A stretch of DNA of 64,000 nucleotides from Embleya hyalina. Lineage in GTDB: Bacteria; Actinomycetota; Actinomycetes; Streptomycetales; Streptomycetaceae. Below are positions 3,776 to 34,521 of the stretch, in pieces; positions within the stretch are counted from its first letter, which is position 1, and the number at the start of each line of letters is the position of its first letter. The position numbers were made by a program, and so were the translations under genes. The notes under the pieces were generated by a model. That model searched no databases, had not been told where the DNA came from, and was given only the letters and a program-made list of their open reading frames with translations. The DNA is taken from assembly GCF_003967355.1 (NCBI RefSeq), contig NZ_BIFH01000037.1, positions 26,277-90,276 of the forward strand, read 5' to 3'.

Positions 3776-4558
3776 ATGAAGCTGCTCCCGCTGTTCATTC
3801 GACGGCCGATCGAGGCGGTGTACGAGCGCCGGCTGGCCTCGACCCTGGTCGGGCTGCCGCGTCCGCAGAACGTCGGGATCATGCTCGACGGCAATCGGCG
3901 CTGGGCGCGCAAGGCGGGACACTCCGACGTACGCGAGGGATACCGCGCCGGCGGCGCGAAGGTGACCGAGTTCCTGGGCTGGTGCAGCGCCGCCGGGATC
4001 GAACACGTGACCCTGTTCATGCTCTCCGACGACAACCTCGGCCGGCCCGCCGAGGAGCTCGGCCCGCTGATCGAGATCATCGAGGAGACCGTCCGGGACA
4101 TCACCGCCGAGGGCCGCTCCTGGGAGGTCCAGGTGATCGGCTCGCTGGACATGCTGCCCGGTGCCGGTGCCCGGGTGCTCAAGGAGGCCACCGCCGCCAC
4201 GGCCGGGCGTGGCGGGCTCAGGGTGGACGTCGCGGTCGGTTACGGCGGCCGGCGGGAGATCGTCGACGCGGTCAAGAGCGCGTTCGAGCAGCACATGGCG
4301 GCCGGCGGCGACCCGGCCGAGCTGGTCGAGCGGTTCGAGATCGAGGACATCTCGCGGCATCTGTACTCGCCGACCGCCGCGCACACCGACTTCATCATCC
4401 GCACGTCCGGCGAGCAGCGGCTGTCCGGCTTCCTGCTCTGGCAGTCCGCGTACGCCGAGATGCACTGGGTGGACTGCTACTGGCCGGCCTTCCGGCACGT
4501 CGACTTCCTGCGCGCACTGCGCTCGTACGCCACACGCGAGCGCCGCTTCGGCAAATAG
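3776..4558 (+). CDS. Isoprenyl (cis-prenyl) transferase
   Basis: This is a cis-prenyltransferase of the UppS family, 260 residues. It condenses isopentenyl diphosphate onto an allylic diphosphate, giving Z-configured prenyl diphosphates. The hallmark I-M-L-D-G-N-R-R-W-A-R is at residues 35-45, with catalytic Asp38. The C-terminal signature R-T-S-G-E-Q-R-L-S-G-F and W-x-x-x-x-E is also present. The sequence resembles the shorter actinobacterial paralog (Rv1086 type, Z-farnesyl diphosphate synthase) more than the main undecaprenyl enzyme, but the product length cannot be settled from sequence. The RBS is GGAGAAGG. Confidence 0.93.
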   Translation: MKLLPLFIRRPIEAVYERRLASTLVGLPRPQNVGIMLDGNRRWARKAGHSDVREGYRAGGAKVTEFLGWCSAAGIEHVTLFMLSDDNLGRPAEELGPLIEIIEETVRDITAEGRSWEVQVIGSLDMLPGAGARVLKEATAATAGRGGLRVDVAVGYGGRREIVDAVKSAFEQHMAAGGDPAELVERFEIEDISRHLYSPTAAHTDFIIRTSGEQRLSGFLLWQSAYAEMHWVDCYWPAFRHVDFLRALRSYATRERRFGK

Positions 4559-4565
4559 TGGCCGA

Positions 4566-5183
4566 TCAGTCGTCGTCCTGATCCCGGCCGCCGAAGCACC
4601 AGGCGTGCGCCTCGATGCTCGCGTACAGATCGGCCCGCGCGTACGGCCCGCGCGCGAGCAGCGCCGTCGCCGCGGCGTGGTCCGGGAGTTCGGCCAGGAT
4701 CGCGGTGCCCAGCCACTGTGCACCGTCCTCGGACAGCAGCGGCCCGCACACGATCAGCGACCCGGCGTGTTCGCCGTCGAGCAGATGGCGGCGCTGTTCG
4801 GCGTGCAGCGCGTCCCGAGCCGCGGTGCTGCCGGGTCGGGCGTGGGCGAGGATCAAGAAGCGCGGCCCGGGCGGCGCACTCCCCTCGAAGTCCCACATCG
4901 TCCGGCCGAGGGTGTTGCCCCACCGGCGGATCAGCACCTCCGGCTCGTAGACGCCCGCCCGGTGGTTCGGCTCGTCGTAGGCGAACCTCCGGACCGCGTC
5001 GGCGTCCGGCAGATCGACGATGTGCACACTGCCGGTCACCGTCTCCCCGTCGGCGGCGAACGTCGGCCCCCGGGCGATCATGCCCTCGGCATAGCCGTCC
5101 ATGAACGTCCGATGTGCTTCAAGCAGTTCGTCGCGCAGCGGCCGTGTTCTCGGCCGGTCGCGACAGTAGAACAGGTACTCCAT
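4566..5183 (-). CDS. Tandem YCII-domain protein
   Basis: This 205-residue protein contains two YCII-like (dimeric alpha-beta barrel) halves. The first starts M-E-Y-L-F-Y-C-R-D and includes H-R-T-F-M-D and the D-P/D-E-P-N-H-R-A-G-V turn. The second starts F-L-I-L-A-H-A-R-P-G and contains a similar R-x-x-H-L and G-P-L-L-S-E-D segment. Such proteins are related to EthD or chlorite-dismutase-like folds and are often of unknown enzymatic role. ATG 5183 has GGGGGA six bases upstream. The gene is convergent with the prenyltransferase, seven bases apart. Confidence 0.8.
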   Translation of the reverse strand: MEYLFYCRDRPRTRPLRDELLEAHRTFMDGYAEGMIARGPTFAADGETVTGSVHIVDLPDADAVRRFAYDEPNHRAGVYEPEVLIRRWGNTLGRTMWDFEGSAPPGPRFLILAHARPGSTAARDALHAEQRRHLLDGEHAGSLIVCGPLLSEDGAQWLGTAILAELPDHAAATALLARGPYARADLYASIEAHAWCFGGRDQDDD

Positions 5184-5335
5184 GCCCGATCCCCCGTGCG
5201 GTGTCGCCATGTGCGTCCGACCGGAGCACAGTACGACAGGCCGCCGAGGCTGTCGACGACGCGAGCGTGTGCGCCGCGGGCCGGCGGGGGAGCAACCCCC
5301 ACCGGCCCGTCGGTCGTTCGCCGCGTCCCGCCGTC

Positions 5336-6235
5336 CTACCCGTGCGGGAAGGTCGTCTTCGCCGGCCGCACCAGGTCGTCCGCGTAGTTGGCGATCAGGT
5401 CCAGATTACGATCGGCCAGGTGGTCGAACACCTGCGGCACGCTCGAACCCGGGGTCAGCGACGCCAACGCGCGCTCCGGGTCGAGCCGGGCCGAGACCCA
5501 GCCCTCGTGTGAGGACCCGCGCGCGATCACCTCGGCGCCCGGCGTGACGATCATCGAGTTGCCGAAGTACAACACGCCCGCCGGGTCGCTGCCGGTGGCG
5601 TTGGCCCCGACGACGTAGACGTGGTTGTCGTACGCCCGTGCGCGGTTGGTGAGTTCCCACAGGTCGGCGGAGCGCAGCAGTGCCGACGGGCGGCAGATCA
5701 CCTCGGCGCCCCGCACGGCCTGGATCCGGCTCAGCTCCGGGTAGTCGCCGTCGAAGCAGATGATCATGCCGATCCGACCGAGGTCGGTCTCCACCACGTC
5801 GACGTGCTCACCGGGCGTGACCCACCCACCGCGCGAGCGCAGTTCGGGGCCGAAGGGGTGGGTCTTGCGGTAGACGCCGAGCACCCGCCCGTCGGGACCG
5901 GCCAGCACCGACGAGTTGTACACCTCGCCGCGCTCGGCGCCGCGCTCGTACGTGCCCCACACCAGGTGCACGCCCAACTCCCGGGCCCGCTCCTGGAACG
6001 GCTCGGTGAGCCCGCCGGGGATGGCGTCGACCAGGTCCCACAACTCCTCGGCGGGCAGCGCCGGGGTGAAGCCCGTGGTCACGCTCTCCGGCAGGACCAC
6101 CAACTCCGCGCCGGTCGACTCGACGCAGCGGGTCACCCATTGCAACGCGTGGGTGATGTTCGCCTCGACCACCGCCGCCGTGAGCGGCCCCGGGCGAGGC
6201 ACGACCTGAACGGCCGCGGCCGTGAACGCACGCAT
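5336..6235 (-). CDS. Nitrilase-superfamily carbon-nitrogen hydrolase
   Basis: This is an amidase or N-carbamoyl-type hydrolase of the nitrilase superfamily, 299 residues. The catalytic triad is visible: Glu50 (L-V-V-L-P-E), Lys124 (Y-R-K-T-H) and Cys160 (I-I-C-F-D-G-D-Y-P-E). The fold is usual length for aliphatic amidase or carbamoylase-like enzymes. It is the last gene of a minus-strand run that begins with an NCS2 permease and continues through a Mo hydroxylase and CoxG. Context suggests that it cleaves an amide or ureido group of an intermediate made by the hydroxylase. The substrate itself is inference. Confidence 0.9.
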   Translation of the reverse strand: MRAFTAAAVQVVPRPGPLTAAVVEANITHALQWVTRCVESTGAELVVLPESVTTGFTPALPAEELWDLVDAIPGGLTEPFQERARELGVHLVWGTYERGAERGEVYNSSVLAGPDGRVLGVYRKTHPFGPELRSRGGWVTPGEHVDVVETDLGRIGMIICFDGDYPELSRIQAVRGAEVICRPSALLRSADLWELTNRARAYDNHVYVVGANATGSDPAGVLYFGNSMIVTPGAEVIARGSSHEGWVSARLDPERALASLTPGSSVPQVFDHLADRNLDLIANYADDLVRPAKTTFPHG

Positions 6236-6267
6236 GGTTGTCGCTCCCTTCCCGAAAACGAACCGGA

Positions 6268-6930
6268 TCAGCGCCGACGCGCGATCACGCCGCCGACGAT
6301 CGCGCCGAGCAGCGCCACCGCCGCGCCGAACAGCGCGCCCTTGGCGAAGTCGTCGCCGGAGAAGGCGGACGCCGGGGCCGCGTACGTACCCGCCGGAGCC
6401 GCGACCGCGCCGCCATCCACCGTCGCCACCACGGGAGTTCCGTTGACCGCCGCCGGCACGCCGCCCTTCGGCGCGGCCGTGAGCGGCGTCTGCCCGGTCA
6501 GGATCTTGTCCACCGACTTGAAGAACTCGCCGGCCGTCTTCTTGGCCACCCCGGTCAGCATGCGCTGCCCGACGCCGCCGATCACGCCGCCGACCACGGC
6601 CTCCGCGTCGTACTCCAACCGGGTCCGGCCGCCGTCGATGTCCTCCAGCGTCACCTTCACCTCGGCGCTGACCGTGCCCGGACCACCCGAACCGGAGGCC
6701 TTGAGCATGAACGAACCCGGCGGTACCTGGTCGGTGAGCTGCACGTTGCCCAGGTAGGTGCCCTTGATCGAGGCGACGCCCATCGTCACCGTCATCCGGT
6801 ACGCGTCGGGACCGGTCTCCTCCAGCTTCTCGCAGCCGGGGATCGTACGGGTGAGCACGGCCGGGTCGTTCAGCGCCGCCCAGACCTTGTCGGCAGGGGC
6901 GTTCAGGATGGCGTTTCCTTGGACCTTCAT
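6268..6930 (-). CDS. coxG: CoxG-family SRPBCC protein with C-terminal membrane anchor
   Basis: This 220-residue protein has an N-terminal SRPBCC domain of the CO dehydrogenase subunit G family (residues 1-145). It starts with M-K-V-x-G and holds P-A-D-K-V-W-A-A-L-N-D and I-P-G-C-E. A Pro/Ala/Gly linker and one C-terminal hydrophobic segment ending in A-R-R-R follow. In Oligotropha, CoxG recruits CO dehydrogenase to the membrane and is not part of the catalytic complex. The gene lies 15 bases downstream of the CoxL-like gene, consistent with anchoring this hydroxylase to the inner face of the membrane. Confidence 0.9.
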   Translation of the reverse strand: MKVQGNAILNAPADKVWAALNDPAVLTRTIPGCEKLEETGPDAYRMTVTMGVASIKGTYLGNVQLTDQVPPGSFMLKASGSGGPGTVSAEVKVTLEDIDGGRTRLEYDAEAVVGGVIGGVGQRMLTGVAKKTAGEFFKSVDKILTGQTPLTAAPKGGVPAAVNGTPVVATVDGGAVAAPAGTYAAPASAFSGDDFAKGALFGAAVALLGAIVGGVIARRR

Positions 6931-28920: not shown

Positions 28921-30279
28921 TCACGTGTGGTCGGCGAACCACGCAAGCACGAGTGGCGCCGAGCCGATCCCGGACGGATAGTGCCCGATGTCGCCGAGAT
29001 CGGTCACCCGGACGTCGGCGCCGCGCGCGCTCAGCGTGCGGGCGCAACTCTCGGTGTTGGCGAACGGCACCTCCCGGTCGCCCCGGGCCGCGAAGAGCAC
29101 GACGGGCACACGCGGGCGCCACGCACAGGTCGTGTCGTTCTCGCGCATCGCGGCGAGGAAGCGGCCGGCGGCCTCGTTGCGGCCGGCCAGGAACTCCGCC
29201 TGGAACAGCGCCTCGCGACGGTCGGGAAGACCGGCCAGGATCTGCTCCTCGGTATGCCGCCCGTCGAACAGCCGCAGCACGTTGGCCACTTGGTCCGGCA
29301 GGAAGACCTCCTCGGGGTGCCGGTACAGGGGACGCGCCGCGTTCCAGCCCAGGACCAGATAGCCGAGCGCGAGGTTGACCGCGCGTGCGTCGCCGGTGGT
29401 ACCCATGGCGGCCGGCAACATCACCCCCTCCAGGTCGTAGGGCCCACTCGCCGGGGCCAGCCCGCCCAGGGTCAGCCGTGGATCGGCGCCCGCGTCCAGG
29501 GCCTTGGCCAGCGCCATCGCGGCGTGCCCGCCCTGGGAGAACCCGGTGACCAGGACCCGCTCGTCGAGCCGCACACCCTCGCGCCGGGCCGGTTCGCGCG
29601 CCGCCCGCAGCAGGTCGACGGACGCCGACGCCTCGGACGCGGCGTGATCGTACGGGTGCCGGCCCGGACCCAGACCGAGGCCGAGGTAGTCCGGCGCCAC
29701 GGTGAAGTAGCCCGCGCCCGCGTAGAAGAGCGGGAACGCCCGGTTGTCGTCGGCCCGTTCCCCGGACGGCGCGCCGACCTTCTCCACCGTGGTCCCGTGC
29801 TCGAAGGCGAGCACCCGCTGCGTCCGGGCCCCGCCCCGGGGCACCGCGACCAGGCCGCTTGCCACGGTCGGCCGCCCGGCCGCGTCGATCGTGCGGTAGA
29901 CCACGACATAGGTGACCACGCCGTATTCGGCGGCCGGTGCGTTCAGGTCGTACGGCGACAACTGCTCGCGGACCCGGTCCCGATCCAGGACGTCCACGCG
30001 GCGTACCGAGACCACGCTGCCCCGCCCGTACGCGGGAGCCCGCTCGGTGTCGGCGACGGCCGCCCGGCTCCCGGAGGGCGCCGCGTCGGGCCGGCCGGCG
30101 GCATGCGCCGGTACCGCGCCGTTCGCGAGCAGTAGCAGCAACGCCGCGCCCGCCGGCCCGGCGACGGCCCGACCCCATCGGCGCCGCCGGGTCGTCGACG
30201 CCCTCCCGCCGGTGCGCAAGGTTGTACGAACTCGCTTCGTGTCTAGGGCATTTGGTGCCGCGTTCTGAGCAAATCGCAT
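28921..30279 (-). CDS. Secreted alpha/beta-hydrolase lipase
   Basis: This is a predicted extracellular lipase or esterase, 452 residues. A long N-region with many Arg precedes a hydrophobic signal segment (about residues 38-60, ending A-H-A-A). The catalytic nucleophile is Ser in V-T-G-F-S-Q-G-G-H-A-A. The acid is probably Asp in A-A-R-G-D-R-E-V-P, and the His lies in D-I-G-H-Y-P near the end. The overall layout resembles the secretory lipase (LIP) family. ATG 30279 lies seven bases after a TAGCGT -10 box, supporting a leaderless start. It is downstream of the lanthipeptide synthetase on the same strand (105-base gap) but has its own promoter. Confidence 0.88.
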   Translation of the reverse strand: MRFAQNAAPNALDTKRVRTTLRTGGRASTTRRRRWGRAVAGPAGAALLLLLANGAVPAHAAGRPDAAPSGSRAAVADTERAPAYGRGSVVSVRRVDVLDRDRVREQLSPYDLNAPAAEYGVVTYVVVYRTIDAAGRPTVASGLVAVPRGGARTQRVLAFEHGTTVEKVGAPSGERADDNRAFPLFYAGAGYFTVAPDYLGLGLGPGRHPYDHAASEASASVDLLRAAREPARREGVRLDERVLVTGFSQGGHAAMALAKALDAGADPRLTLGGLAPASGPYDLEGVMLPAAMGTTGDARAVNLALGYLVLGWNAARPLYRHPEEVFLPDQVANVLRLFDGRHTEEQILAGLPDRREALFQAEFLAGRNEAAGRFLAAMRENDTTCAWRPRVPVVLFAARGDREVPFANTESCARTLSARGADVRVTDLGDIGHYPSGIGSAPLVLAWFADHT

Positions 30280-30285
30280 ACCCGG

Positions 30286-30291
30286 ACGCTA
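30286..30291 (-). promoter_or_regulatory. Leaderless -10 box of lipase gene
   Basis: On the minus strand TAGCGT followed by CCGGGT leads directly into ATG 30279. The same TAGCGTCCGGGT string precedes the GTG of the kinase gene at 55420. Confidence 0.7.
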
Positions 30292-30384
30292 GCCGGCCGG
30301 GAAGCTCCCGGCACTCCGGTCACGCCCACCTTCGCAGTGGGCCCGGACCCACCCCGAACCGGAGGCCACCACCAAACGCGCCGC

Positions 30385-32973
30385 TCAGGGACCCGTCGAC
30401 GGAGCCAACAGCCTCGGCCCGCCGCGCTGTCGCACCCGTCGGAAGAAGGAGAGGACACCCGCGCCGCCCGTGGCCCACGCCGGGCTCGACGCGGCGCGGG
30501 TGTTGTCCGGGAGCAGGGGGCGGCGTGTGCTGCCGCCGCTGCGCGCCAGGATCAGGCCGATCACGTCCTCGGCGGCCCGCCACAGTTCGTCGTCGCCGGT
30601 CGCGACGGCGGCGTCCACGAGCAGTTCGCCGATGCCGGACAGGCCGCAACACTGGGACACCAGGCTCATCCGCGGCGCGAGGGAGTGGCACAACCGGGCG
30701 CAGCGCAGGCCGAGTTCGAGCAGTTTCGGGTCCCGATCCGCGGCCCCGGCGGCGATCAGCGTCGTACCGATGCCGGCCATGCCGCGGCACCATGACCCGA
30801 AGTTCCGGGCGGCGCCGGGGAGTGCGGCCGAGGCGAGCAGGTCGGGGGTGCGCGCGGCGAGGTCGGCCAGACCCTCCCGGGCGGCGGCGTGCACGGCCGG
30901 CGCCGCGTCGGGGTCGGTGCGCCGGTACGTGTCGAGGAAGTACACGATGCCGGCCCGACCGTGCGCGAACCCGTGGGCGTAGGCCGCGCGGGAGGAGGCC
31001 GGGGGCAGCCCGAGTTCGTCGGGTCCGGGCTCGCCCTGCCGGGCCAGGAGCATGCCGGCGCGGTCCGCGGCGGCGGCCAGGTGCACCCCCGCCCGCTCCG
31101 GGTCGCCCGCCGCCCGGGCCGCGGCGGCCAGCAGCAGGTGCCCGGTACCGCCGCCGGCCGCGCCGCCGATCTGGTCGCCGGTGTCGTCGTAGGGCCCGGC
31201 CGCGGTCGGCGTGTTCGGGGCCGGCGCACCGCCCGGGAGGTCGGCGGCGGCCCGGAGGAAGAGGTCGATGCCGGTGCGGCCGGTGTACAACGTGTCGGAG
31301 AGGTCGCCGAGTTCGGGGTGGGCCGCGGTGCGCCGGGCGAGGTGCGCGACGGCGGTGGCGACGTCCGGGCGGTCGGTGTGGCGCAGCAGTTCGAGGCCGA
31401 CGCCGGCGGCGCCCACGTACAGGGTCAGCGTCGAGCCGGGACGCGGACCCGAGGCGGCGGGCCAGTCGGCGACACCCCGGACACAGGCGGCGACGGTGTG
31501 GCCGATCACGTCGTCCAGGAGCGTGGGGGTGACCCGGGGCGGCGCCGGCAGTCGGCGGGCGGGCATCGGCTCGGGCTGCCCCGCACGCAACCGCCGCGCA
31601 CAGGCTGACCGTTCGGCCGGATCCGGGCTGAGCAGCGCGGCGACCATGGCCCGGACCGGCCGATGGCCGACCCCGGGCAGCGCGGCCGCCAGGCAGGCGA
31701 GCGTACGGTGCCGGTTCACCGCCGGATCGGGGTCGACGATCACCGGGTCGAGGCCGGTCAGCGCGTAGTGCAGGGTGGCGCCCAGCGCGTACAGGTCGTC
31801 GACCGGGACGGGCGAGACGCCGTCCGGACCGGGTGCCGGGGTGTAGCCGGGGGTGCCGCCGGCCGGGCGGCGGGTGTCCAGCGCGCTGATCCCGAAGTCG
31901 ACGATCCGGGCGTTGCCATCGGCGTCCAGCACCACGTTGCCCGGTTTGAGGTCGCACACCACCACGCCGCGCTCGTGGATGCCGTCGAGCACCGCGAGCA
32001 GTCGGCGGGCCAGGTCGGAGATCCGCCGGCCGGAGCGGGCGTCGCCCGGGTAGGGGCCGTGGCCGAGCACGTCGCGGCGCAGGTCGCCGGGGCCGCAGTC
32101 GGTGGTGACCAGGTACTCGTCCTCGCCGTGCCGCAGGTGGTCGATCACCCGGGGGACGCCGTCGAGACCGGACAGCGCGCCCAATACCGCGCGTTCGTGG
32201 CGCAGCCGGTCCCTGGCGTCGAGTCCGCCGCCGTCCTCCCCGGCGTACGCCCGGGCCTGCTTGACCACGACGCGGTCGCCGGTCGCGGTGTCGAGGGCGC
32301 GGTAGACGTCGCCGTGCGGGGAGCGGGCGATGCCGCCGGTGAGCCGGTACCGGCCGCCGATCAGCCGGGCGGTGCGGCCGGGCGCGGGCGCGGCGGCGCC
32401 GAACGGGTCGGCGGCCCACGGGGGCTGCCGGTAGCGCACGGTGGCCCGCCCCGGGAAGCGCTGTCCGTCGGGGCCGGTCATCACCAGCGCCGCGTCGTCG
32501 CCGCCGCTCGCCCGGAAGGGCCCGTACCGGTAGTAGACGGGGGCGTCGGGGCGGACCCGGCGATCGCCGAGCACACGCGGCCCGCCGCGACCGGCCAGCA
32601 CCTCGGCGAGTTCGCGGCCCAGCGCGGTCACGTCCTTCTCGCGCGGGTAGACGGTGATCGCCTTGCCGACGAGGGCGGGATCGCGGACGCCGGCGTTGAT
32701 CTCCTCCAGCACGGCGGTGCCGGCCGCGAACTTGGCCAGGCAGGTGTACCGCAGCAGCACCGGGACCAGCAGGTCCAGGGTCTCGGTGAAGTCCTCGGGG
32801 CGGGTCGAGACGTGCAGCTTCCAGCCGTGGTCCAGCGCGGGCATGTTCGGATCGAACAGGTGGAGCCAGACCGAATCCGCACGGTGGCGTCGATCGTGGC
32901 CGGCGATCAGCGCGTCCAGGCGCCGACTCAGGTCCTGTACGGATCCGTCGGGCACCGCCCGCACCTTGCCCAC
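30385..32973 (-). CDS. Class IV-like lanthipeptide synthetase (LanL)
   Basis: This 862-residue enzyme has the three-part layout of class III/IV lanthipeptide synthetases. Residues about 1-195 form a lyase domain (G-W-K-L-H-V-S, V-G-K-A-I-T-V-Y-P, Y-Y-R-Y-G-P-F). About 215-460 form a Ser/Thr-kinase domain (V-V-V-K-Q, V-V-C-D-L-K-P-G-N, V-D-F-G). About 520-862 form a LanC-like cyclase (A-H-G-F-A-H-G-R-A-G). Putative zinc ligands are Cys729 (S-W-C-R-G) and Cys775-Cys776 (Q-C-C-G). Class III enzymes lack these, so class IV is favoured. GTG 32973 has AAGGAG six bases upstream. It would phosphorylate, dehydrate and cyclise the peptide encoded at 33165-33332. Confidence 0.92.
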   Translation of the reverse strand: MGKVRAVPDGSVQDLSRRLDALIAGHDRRHRADSVWLHLFDPNMPALDHGWKLHVSTRPEDFTETLDLLVPVLLRYTCLAKFAAGTAVLEEINAGVRDPALVGKAITVYPREKDVTALGRELAEVLAGRGGPRVLGDRRVRPDAPVYYRYGPFRASGGDDAALVMTGPDGQRFPGRATVRYRQPPWAADPFGAAAPAPGRTARLIGGRYRLTGGIARSPHGDVYRALDTATGDRVVVKQARAYAGEDGGGLDARDRLRHERAVLGALSGLDGVPRVIDHLRHGEDEYLVTTDCGPGDLRRDVLGHGPYPGDARSGRRISDLARRLLAVLDGIHERGVVVCDLKPGNVVLDADGNARIVDFGISALDTRRPAGGTPGYTPAPGPDGVSPVPVDDLYALGATLHYALTGLDPVIVDPDPAVNRHRTLACLAAALPGVGHRPVRAMVAALLSPDPAERSACARRLRAGQPEPMPARRLPAPPRVTPTLLDDVIGHTVAACVRGVADWPAASGPRPGSTLTLYVGAAGVGLELLRHTDRPDVATAVAHLARRTAAHPELGDLSDTLYTGRTGIDLFLRAAADLPGGAPAPNTPTAAGPYDDTGDQIGGAAGGGTGHLLLAAAARAAGDPERAGVHLAAAADRAGMLLARQGEPGPDELGLPPASSRAAYAHGFAHGRAGIVYFLDTYRRTDPDAAPAVHAAAREGLADLAARTPDLLASAALPGAARNFGSWCRGMAGIGTTLIAAGAADRDPKLLELGLRCARLCHSLAPRMSLVSQCCGLSGIGELLVDAAVATGDDELWRAAEDVIGLILARSGGSTRRPLLPDNTRAASSPAWATGGAGVLSFFRRVRQRGGPRLLAPSTGP

Positions 32974-33164
32974 GTCCGCTCCTTGCCGTTCCGGGTCGGG
33001 TGGTTCCGAACACACCGTCCGCCGAGCGACCGCCCGTCCGCCGCCGGCGTCCGCGCGGCCGGCGTGCCCGGTACGGGACCGCGCGCCCCGCGCGGATGCG
33101 TGTGCTCCGTGCGGGGCGGCCGGATCGATGGGCTCCGGGCCGGATCCGGTGTTCGGCGGGAGGG

Positions 33165-33332
33165 TCAGGCCCAGTCGCACCCCACGCGGGTGGTGGCGGT
33201 CACCCACGGCTCGGCCAGACACGACTCGATCCGGCGTTCCGGGTTGGTCTCGTCCTCGAACTCGACCAGTTCCTCCTCGACCTCGACATCGAGCGGACCG
33301 GCGTCGCGGATCTCTACCTTCACGGGGCTCAT
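33165..33332 (-). CDS. Lanthipeptide precursor peptide
   Basis: This 55-residue peptide is encoded 191 bases upstream of the LanL gene on the same strand. ATG 33332 has AGGAAGGA about six bases upstream, a strong RBS, whereas the longer open frame to 33566 has none. The first 34 residues are acidic, with P-L-D-V-E-V-E-E-E-L as a likely recognition helix, as in leaders. The C-terminal 20 residues hold Ser37, Cys38, Thr45, Thr47, Thr48 and Cys52, ending G-C-D-W-A. This gives four dehydratable residues and two thiols, enough for two rings. Two Trp (43 and 54) mark the core. I recognise no known precursor family. Confidence 0.82.
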   Translation of the reverse strand: MSPVKVEIRDAGPLDVEVEEELVEFEDETNPERRIESCLAEPWVTATTRVGCDWA

Positions 33333-33699
33333 TTCGATCCTTCCTGCGGCAGTGGCGGGCAGATCAGTACACGAACCTTCGCGGTGGTCGGCCGTCCCCG
33401 GTCGCCGCCCGCACCTGTGTCCTCCGGTGCTGGTGGGGCGGGTGGGCCGCCGTTCCGCGCCAATAGTCTCCACGCTGCGCAACAAAAGGAGAACGTCACG
33501 AATCGGTCGACTTATGGCGTGATTTCGCGTGCGTGAACGGGATTCGACGACCCCGATTCGGGACACGGGCAGGGGCCGCCGAAAGACCCGACGCCGACCC
33601 CGACGCGATCACCGCGTCGGCGGGCCGCGCAACCGCCCCGCCGGCCCCGGGGTGGGGGCGCCGGCCACCGGGTGGTTGTCGTGTGCGCACAATGGCGGC
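33333..33699. other. Divergent intergenic region upstream of lanthipeptide precursor
   Basis: These 367 bases separate the precursor from a divergent gene and hold no credible coding sequence of their own. The open frames here lack ribosome sites. A TATTGG that could serve as a -10 for the precursor lies at about 33460-33465 on the minus strand, but its -35 is weak. The region must contain both promoters. Confidence 0.4.
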
Positions 33700-34521
33700 A
33701 TGACGACGCCGAACATCCCACCGTCGCCCGACGAGTTGCTCCGGCACCTGATTGCGACCCGCATCGCGGGCCCGATCGCCACCCCACGAGAGGTCAACCT
33801 CCGGCACTACGCCGAACTGGTCCGCGGAAACCTGCGTTTTTGGCTCGGCCTGGACCTGGGCGACCGCTGGAAGACCGAGGAGGACGTGCTCGCCGTGATG
33901 GCCGAGCGCGCGGGCGTGGACCCGAACCCCGCTCATCGCACCGGCCAGGACACCATCGACCCCGACCTGACCCTGGCCGCCCTCGACCGGATGGCCGCCG
34001 TACTGCGCGACGCCGCGGCCCGCCGACTGCACGTCCTCGTCGCCACCGGCCATCCCGGCGGCCTGCTCGACGTACACCGCGCCATCGCCGAGTCGCTGAG
34101 CACGGCCGGCGCCACCGTCGTCGACATCCCGCGCGACCTGCGCACCACCGAGGGCGACGACGAAACCTGGGGCGACGTCCGCCAGTTCGGCGGCGTCGCG
34201 GTCCTGGAGCGCGGGGCCACGCTGTGGCACACGCACGCCCCGCAACCGATGAGCGCGATCCTGGACGCGCTCGCAGAGAGCGGCCGACCCCGCCCCGACC
34301 TCGTGGTCGCCGACCACGGCTGGGCGGGCCGTGCCGGGCAACACGGCATCCCCACCGTCGCGTTCGCCGACAGCAACGACCCGGCGCTGTTCCTCGGCGA
34401 GGCCGAGGGCACCGTCACGGTGACCGTTCCGCTCGACGACCACATCGTCGACGCCCGCGACTACGCCCCGATGACCGCCTATCTCCTGGCGGCCGCCGGC
34501 CTGTCCGCCGAGTCCCGCTGA
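33700..34521 (+). CDS. Conserved actinobacterial protein, annotated elsewhere as phosphatase
   Basis: This 273-residue soluble protein resembles a conserved Streptomyces protein often labelled phosphatase. Notable stretches are H-V-L-V-A-T-G-H-P-G-G-L-L-D-V-H, then V-V-A-D-H-G-W-A-G-R-A-G near residue 205, and A-F-A-D-S-N-D-P-A-L. The Asp/His content would suit metal binding, but I see no classical phosphatase signature, so the reaction is uncertain. It starts with ATG 33700 and ends before a strong hairpin. It is divergent from the lanthipeptide genes and probably unrelated to them. Confidence 0.75.
   Translation: MTTPNIPPSPDELLRHLIATRIAGPIATPREVNLRHYAELVRGNLRFWLGLDLGDRWKTEEDVLAVMAERAGVDPNPAHRTGQDTIDPDLTLAALDRMAAVLRDAAARRLHVLVATGHPGGLLDVHRAIAESLSTAGATVVDIPRDLRTTEGDDETWGDVRQFGGVAVLERGATLWHTHAPQPMSAILDALAESGRPRPDLVVADHGWAGRAGQHGIPTVAFADSNDPALFLGEAEGTVTVTVPLDDHIVDARDYAPMTAYLLAAAGLSAESR

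Follow-up and report, generated by a model that had tools for sequence, protein, structure and literature searches.

The locus described here is a pair of genes in a window of 64,000 nucleotides, by which we mean the whole stretch of DNA analysed, from the soil actinomycete Embleya hyalina (GCF_003967355.1, NZ_BIFH01000037.1, positions 26,277–90,276, forward strand). The two genes encode the synthetase and the precursor of a class IV lanthipeptide system.

30385–32973, minus strand: lanL, class IV lanthionine synthetase of 862 amino acids with a GTG start, matching NF038150.
33165–33332, minus strand: lanA, SflA-family class IV lanthipeptide precursor of 55 amino acids, matching NF038148.

The precursor gene comes first and the synthetase gene follows after an intergenic gap of 191 nucleotides. 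Purine-rich stretches resembling ribosome-binding sites lie directly upstream of both, ggaagg before the precursor ATG and aaggag before the synthetase GTG. The synthetase scored 756.3 bits against the NCBI class IV model NF038150 (curated cut-off, 650), and the precursor scored 87.7 bits against NF038148, the model of the SflA family (curated cut-off, 25). SflA is reportedly a class IV lanthipeptide of Streptomyces sp. NRRL S-1022, said in reviews to have been described by Ren et al. in 2020. An earlier reading of this DNA, hereafter the original prediction, had proposed an 862-residue class IV synthetase with an adjoining precursor, and the open reading frames and both family models bore this out. 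The locus is very probably a minimal class IV lanthipeptide cassette of two genes and an Embleya representative of the SflA family. Taken by itself, it is unexceptional and adds one genus to an established family.

The class of the synthetase was examined with the models of the other classes. The protein scored 315.1 bits against the class III model, under the cut-off of 575, and 47.8 bits against the class II model TIGR03897 (cut-off, 304), with the best alignment to the C-terminal part of that model. No Pfam match to the DUF4135 dehydratase was obtained up to an E value of 1. The lyase, kinase and LanC domains were all found in one chain.

32374–32898, minus strand: lyase domain, residues 26–200, PF25816 (RamC_N), with Lys52 and His54 invariant.
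31603–32313, minus strand: Ser/Thr kinase domain, residues 221–457, PF00069, with Lys238, Asp341 and Asp359 kept.
30574–30987, minus strand: LanC-like cyclase domain, residues 663–800, Pfam match PF05147.

In an alignment of 70 rows, a set enriched for relatives of the window synthetase, Lys52, His54 and Lys238 were conserved in 70 of 70 rows, Asp341, Asp359 and Asp600 each in 69, and His671 in 65. The catalytic roles of these seven residues are those expected of their families. The nearest solved relative by sequence, over the full length, was 8car/8cav, and the title of the PDB entry names it as CuvL, curvocidin synthetase. An AlphaFold2 model of the window synthetase, with a mean predicted local distance difference test score (pLDDT) of 79.1, was aligned with 8cav over 814 residues (Z 42.0, root-mean-square deviation 5.0, 38% identity). 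The enzyme is a predicted class IV (LanL-type) synthetase. Assignment to class III (LanKC) was rejected, since the class III model stayed under its cut-off and the zinc ligands are kept. A class III synthetase, LanKC, is also encoded in the same genome (L003:430–3195, contig C16, 1110 bits against the cut-off of 575).

The original prediction had asked for the conservation of the pair in related genomes and for the precursor in relatives that carry the synthetase, and both were found. A search with the synthetase alone led to 11 loci, and every one of them has an SflA-type precursor directly upstream in the same orientation. Three other Embleya genomes keep the pair, with precursor identities of 98, 91 and 74% and synthetase identities of 94, 76 and 75%, the last of these loci (74%/75%) being cut off by a contig end. 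The precursor family was detected in 46 of 394 Streptomycetaceae genomes and in all four Embleya genomes examined. In the class sample, it was detected in 3 of 394 genomes, once with a score under the cut-off. Because both genes match their families over the full length and 11 of 11 loci carry the precursor beside the synthetase, the pair is, as judged from the sequences, not a product of chance. One genome, G685, has a second SflA-family precursor (L128:7640–7807, 77.6 bits, one Cys). No LanL was detected within its 15-kb locus, and the peptide could be modified by the LanL next to the other G685 precursor (L127). In L124 (G606), the LanL next to an SflA-type precursor was detected only as a short frame, from a frameshift or as a pseudogene.

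The zinc site of the synthetase consists of three putative Cys ligands.

30787–30789, minus strand: zinc ligand Cys729 (S-W-C-R-G), kept in all 14 sequences of alignment A2.
30646–30651, minus strand: zinc ligands Cys775 and Cys776 (Q-C-C-G), invariant in the same alignment.

By phmmer alignment, cysteines 729, 775 and 776 fall on F-C-Q-G and Q-C-C-G of 8car, and the solved CuvL structure has the same Cys-Cys-Gly motif. The original prediction had numbered these ligands correctly, and the case that it had set against itself, a class III enzyme with the three Cys outside the zinc positions, was not what we found: the enzyme is not of class III, and the three Cys lie on those positions. It had also called Cys-Cys-Gly notable in a LanL, in view of a usual Cys-His-Gly ending. 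In a 2024 survey, L-CCH is the definition of type IV, and 33 peptides are assigned to L-CCH and 8 to L-CCC (PMC11251773). The usual ending therefore fits the published nomenclature; the all-Cys exception, however, is already known and forms a clade.

A class IV model search of 197 genomes of the order returned 30 loci, of which 18 had Cys-His-Gly, 9 had Cys-Cys-Gly and 3 were unreadable (fragment or gap). The ligand types in the 70 rows were Cys-Cys-Cys in 46, Cys-Cys-His in 19 and none in 5, so that Cys-Cys-Gly occurs in 46 of 65 zinc-type LanLs in this sample, where relatives of the window synthetase are over-represented. The five rows without zinc ligands were all above the class III cut-off (674–1110 bits against 575). 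A tree was obtained by a quick search of 69 of the 70 rows, with long-branch warnings and with L079 excluded as the middle of its gene is missing; the 45 Cys-Cys-Cys, 19 Cys-Cys-His and 5 other rows each formed one side of a branch (Shimodaira–Hasegawa-like approximate likelihood ratio test 100, 99 and 99). Within this sample, the Cys-Cys-Cys LanLs are one clade and the Cys-Cys-His LanLs are its sister. The view of Cys-Cys-Gly as an oddity among LanLs was therefore dropped, and the weight that the original prediction had placed on it was wrong. Because the motif is clade-wide in the sample, present in CuvL and listed as L-CCC in the survey, an all-Cys site is not notable in itself and is the rule among the closest relatives. 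As the zinc site divides class IV into two clades in the sample, the effect of the third thiolate on ring closure would be testable within one class.

The features of the precursor were defined by comparison of 52 distinct precursor tails, from which tails without a FED-like element had been dropped.

33291–33311, minus strand: leader element IRDAGPL, residues 8–14; RD[AE]GxL in 46 of the 52 tails.
33252–33260, minus strand: leader element FED, residues 25–27, conserved; no frequency applies, as the tails were selected for it.
33177–33221, minus strand: predicted ring-forming stretch Cys38–Cys52, with Thr45, Thr47 and Thr48; spacing pattern in 39 of the 52 tails.

The full spacing is a Cys, then Ser or Thr at +7, +9 and +10, and a Cys at +14. 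Ser or Thr at +7 from the first core Cys was found in 48 of 52 tails. In 14 of the 52, the stretch from FED to the first Cys has no Ser or Thr (two of the 14, L114 and L128, have a single Cys), and because of this the first Cys, provided that it forms a ring and does so with a partner outside the leader, must pair with a later residue, giving a backward ring. In four tails (L126, L100, L112 and L108), the Thr at +7 and +11 are the only ones beside two Cys, and separate rings would therefore run from the first Cys to +7 and from +11 to the second Cys. Two non-interlaced rings have been reported for SflA (review PMC8358304). The Cys and Thr spacing of the window precursor is compatible with two separate rings, and its product would most likely contain two separate methyllanthionine rings.

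A relation between ring direction and zinc motif was considered. Three VenA-like precursors beside Cys-His-Gly LanLs (L020–L022, that of L020 confirmed by NF038147) have a Thr directly before the first Cys. The precursors of L027, L030 and L066, also beside Cys-His-Gly LanLs, have a Cys followed by a Thr within a few residues, so that backward rings could not be cleanly linked to the Cys-Cys-Gly site. Against the family models, L027 was above the ALQxL class IV cut-off, L066 was above the VenA cut-off and the L030 peptide gave no family match. More tentatively, an all-Cys zinc site may accompany substrates in which the first Cys has to close on a later Thr. ProcM also makes backward rings. Two loci, L115 and L116, combine the standard IRDAGPL leader with very different cores (e.g. 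CIYNHVTFTPFLTEVWTC), a sign of a leader kept while the core changes. L131 (G319, from another family of the class) has a Cys-Cys-Gly LanL and a precursor with five core Cys and an RDAGVL leader; this precursor is an outlying relative at 24.6 bits, just under the SflA cut-off.

From these features we propose the following course of events. The leader, with its IRDAGPL and FED elements, would bring the precursor to the synthetase, whose kinase domain would phosphorylate the core residues Thr45, Thr47 and/or Thr48. The lyase domain would then eliminate phosphate to give dehydrobutyrines, to which Cys38 and Cys52 would be added at the three-Cys zinc site. One of the predicted rings would join Cys38 to residue 45, so that the Cys precedes its partner, and the other would link Cys52 to residue 47 or 48. 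An unlinked peptidase would trim the leader and an unlinked exporter would release the product.

Several observations weigh against this scheme. Thr29, nine residues before Cys38, permits a forward ring in the window peptide and in some relatives, and because of it the backward ring of Cys38 in the window peptide is likely but not forced. Ser37, which adjoins Cys38, is a further candidate site of dehydration. The reported cleavage site of SflA, PDLLK, is absent from the 55-residue window precursor and present in L018, so that leader processing here is not explained by the SflA site.

For the genes of export and leader removal, the 64-kb window was searched by tblastn with six ATP-binding cassette (ABC) transporter and six M1-peptidase queries, and neither an ABC gene nor an M1-peptidase gene was detected (best E value, 0.033). 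In 36 control pairs, of which 6 were self-matches, the six ABC queries always recovered ABC genes; the M1 queries were without such a control. The original prediction of no ABC transporter or leader peptidase nearby held within this search. Among 33 loci searched by tblastn, 6 had ABC genes and 27 gave no match. Thirty-one loci chosen for holding the pair were also compared by their flanking open frames of at least 120 amino acids, after the stretch of the pair had been cut out. No frame was common to more than 3 of the 31 loci; the sets of three were the Catenulispora loci on the one hand and L016, L019 and L120 on the other. The flanking genes of the window recur in Embleya loci; outside Embleya, weak histidine kinase matches were found in two Catenulispora loci. 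The lipase downstream was rejected as a part of the cluster, as only one other locus, Embleya L117, gave a match and the locus L009/L118 gave none (the locus L013/L119 is cut by a contig end). Its own promoter, which the original prediction had proposed, was not supported, since a sigma-70-like promoter scan of 30200–33760 gave no site, a weakly informative test in an actinomycete. One terminator-like site was found inside the 3' end of lanL, an uninformative result of the promoter and terminator scan.

Since no flanking gene is common to more than 3 of 31 loci and 27 of 33 loci are without an ABC match, export and leader removal would come from elsewhere, by unlinked genes. The same counts, together with the window without an ABC match, could instead mean that the modified peptide is not exported and functions or is degraded within the cell, hence no travelling exporter or protease. 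We regard this as unlikely, because reviews describe SflA, whose cluster is said to have no aminopeptidase gene (PMC8358304), as trimmed by an unlinked AplP-like enzyme that cuts after PDLLK, with further trimming thereafter (PMC10885120). Most of the class III and IV clusters that have been characterised reportedly contain no protease gene (PMC8960859). Exporters, too, can be unlinked. The same genome has a second class IV cluster (L066:7227–14853, G000 contig C35), in which the LanL comes first (Cys-His-Gly, 1010 bits), followed by a peptidase of S9 type, a precursor of the VenA family (48 bits; cut-off, 35) and lastly an ABC exporter. This peptidase and exporter are candidate trans-acting helpers, and nothing ties them to the SflA-type pair. 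Eight M1-peptidase matches were also found in this genome, and the GAMEN motif, a mark of M1 aminopeptidases, is present in two of the six that were fetched.

The original prediction had drawn an analogy to ProcM, an enzyme tolerant of many substrates. A ProcM-like synthetase whose all-Cys zinc site serves many scattered precursors would be in line with the Cys-Cys-Gly LanMs ProcM and SyncM, which process many substrates (PMC10027976), and the second precursor of G685, apart from its pair and with no LanL in its 15-kb locus, would agree with it. However, a single SflA-family match was found in the window's own genome, in a search that precursors outside this family would escape, and in 45 of the 46 carrying genomes, and the cores of the relatives are nearly uniform, as the spacing shared by 39 of 52 tails indicates. 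Such promiscuity does not follow from the Cys-Cys-Gly motif, it was unsupported by these strongly conserved cores, and we consider it very improbable. A degraded or silent locus would be in keeping with the empty promoter scan, but the intact catalytic residues, the open frames and the pair kept in three other Embleya genomes make it, if anything, a shade less probable still. The two-gene SflA-family cassette, served by unlinked genes, is preferred to all of these.

Comparison of the family also revealed precursors with repeated leaders in Catenulispora, where SflA-family precursors above the cut-off were found in 4 of 10 genomes of the genus. Their full open frames scored 37.8–51.2 bits against the NF038148 cut-off of 25, and each lies just upstream of a Cys-Cys-Gly LanL and ends in one normal core.

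L059, 7083–7997: precursor of 304 residues with 15 units of [NS][VL]R[DE].
L062, 1440–2057: precursor of 205 residues with 17 units of the same motif.
L061, 5624–6175: precursor of 183 residues with 9 units.
L060, 9409–9927: precursor of 172 residues with 9 units.

The repeated unit (NVR[DE]-x) is the counterpart of the single IRDAGPL element of ordinary members. L059 has another repeat as well, approximately RVVSNKLLASADAN (SNKLLA occurs 11 times), which resembles the second leader element of the same precursor, LVILDKLLAFEDTD. A further array, in L079 (G025 contig C869, about 4000–6622), has 12 units and ends before any core, and its neighbouring LanL is without its middle part, by mutation or assembly fault.

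Because an amino-acid motif favours units that differ at third positions, the count was repeated on motif-free DNA windows. Self-similar pairs of 24-nucleotide windows in phase numbered 1330 in L062, 2324 in L059, 564 in L061, 557 in L060 and 603 in L079, and out-of-phase pairs were found in none of the five. Third codon positions held 62–71% of the differences among window pairs, the windows overlapping and the counts thus not being independent. Synonymous and non-synonymous codon differences were 23 and 13 for L060–L061 and 42 and 29 for L059–L079; for the distant pairs, in which the repeats are poorly aligned, they were 28 and 90 (L060–L062) and 28 and 83 (L059–L060). The arrays are thus coding and have stayed in frame as their units drifted apart from species to species. 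The AlphaFold2 model of the L059 precursor consists of long helices with a mean pLDDT of 54.5, and no weight was placed on it. The repeated leader may be a multivalent dock that holds several synthetases per chain, or keeps one bound while it works, a tentative idea to which we give somewhat less than even chances. If it is true, leader valence would set the speed or completeness of modification. In a limited literature search (including PMC13003496 and PMC10673953), no lanthipeptide with a repeated leader was found; linked multiple leaders are described as an engineering strategy (PMC13003496). Published genome mining would probably have missed such precursors, because a large study discarded frames of more than 120 residues (PMC7268733) and the precursors reported in the survey range from 29 to 100 residues (PMC11251773).

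Compared with known systems, the window locus is nearest to that of SflA. The window precursor is above the SflA-family cut-off, its core has two Cys and several Thr, and no M1 peptidase was found near the pair, as the SflA cluster is said to be without an aminopeptidase gene (PMC8358304). It differs in the start of the leader, which is MSPVKVEIRD as compared with the MPVAVPDLLK form in L018 and thus lacks PDLLK, and in the Ser37 before the first Cys. CuvL (8car, 8cav) is likewise a class IV-type enzyme, alignable end to end at 38% identity with the same C ... CCG motif. The VenL/VenA-type systems share the lyase-kinase-LanC architecture but have a Cys-His-Gly zinc site and belong to the sister clade; the VenA-like precursors of L020–L022 lie downstream of the synthetase, whereas the window precursor lies upstream, and an ABC transporter is encoded in the venezuelin cluster (PMC2843593). 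The ProcM-like class II LanMs share the Cys-Cys-Gly cyclase motif but have another dehydratase and many scattered precursors, and their Cys-Cys-Cys enzymes are an independent clade (PMC11251773). A 2022 paper lists the venezuelins and SflA as the two earlier characterised class IV members (PMC9576775). The window locus adds a genus to a family of which few members have been characterised, and its greater value is as an entry point to the two zinc-site clades and the repeated leaders. The backward-ring tails, and the repeated leaders in Catenulispora, are of more interest than the locus.

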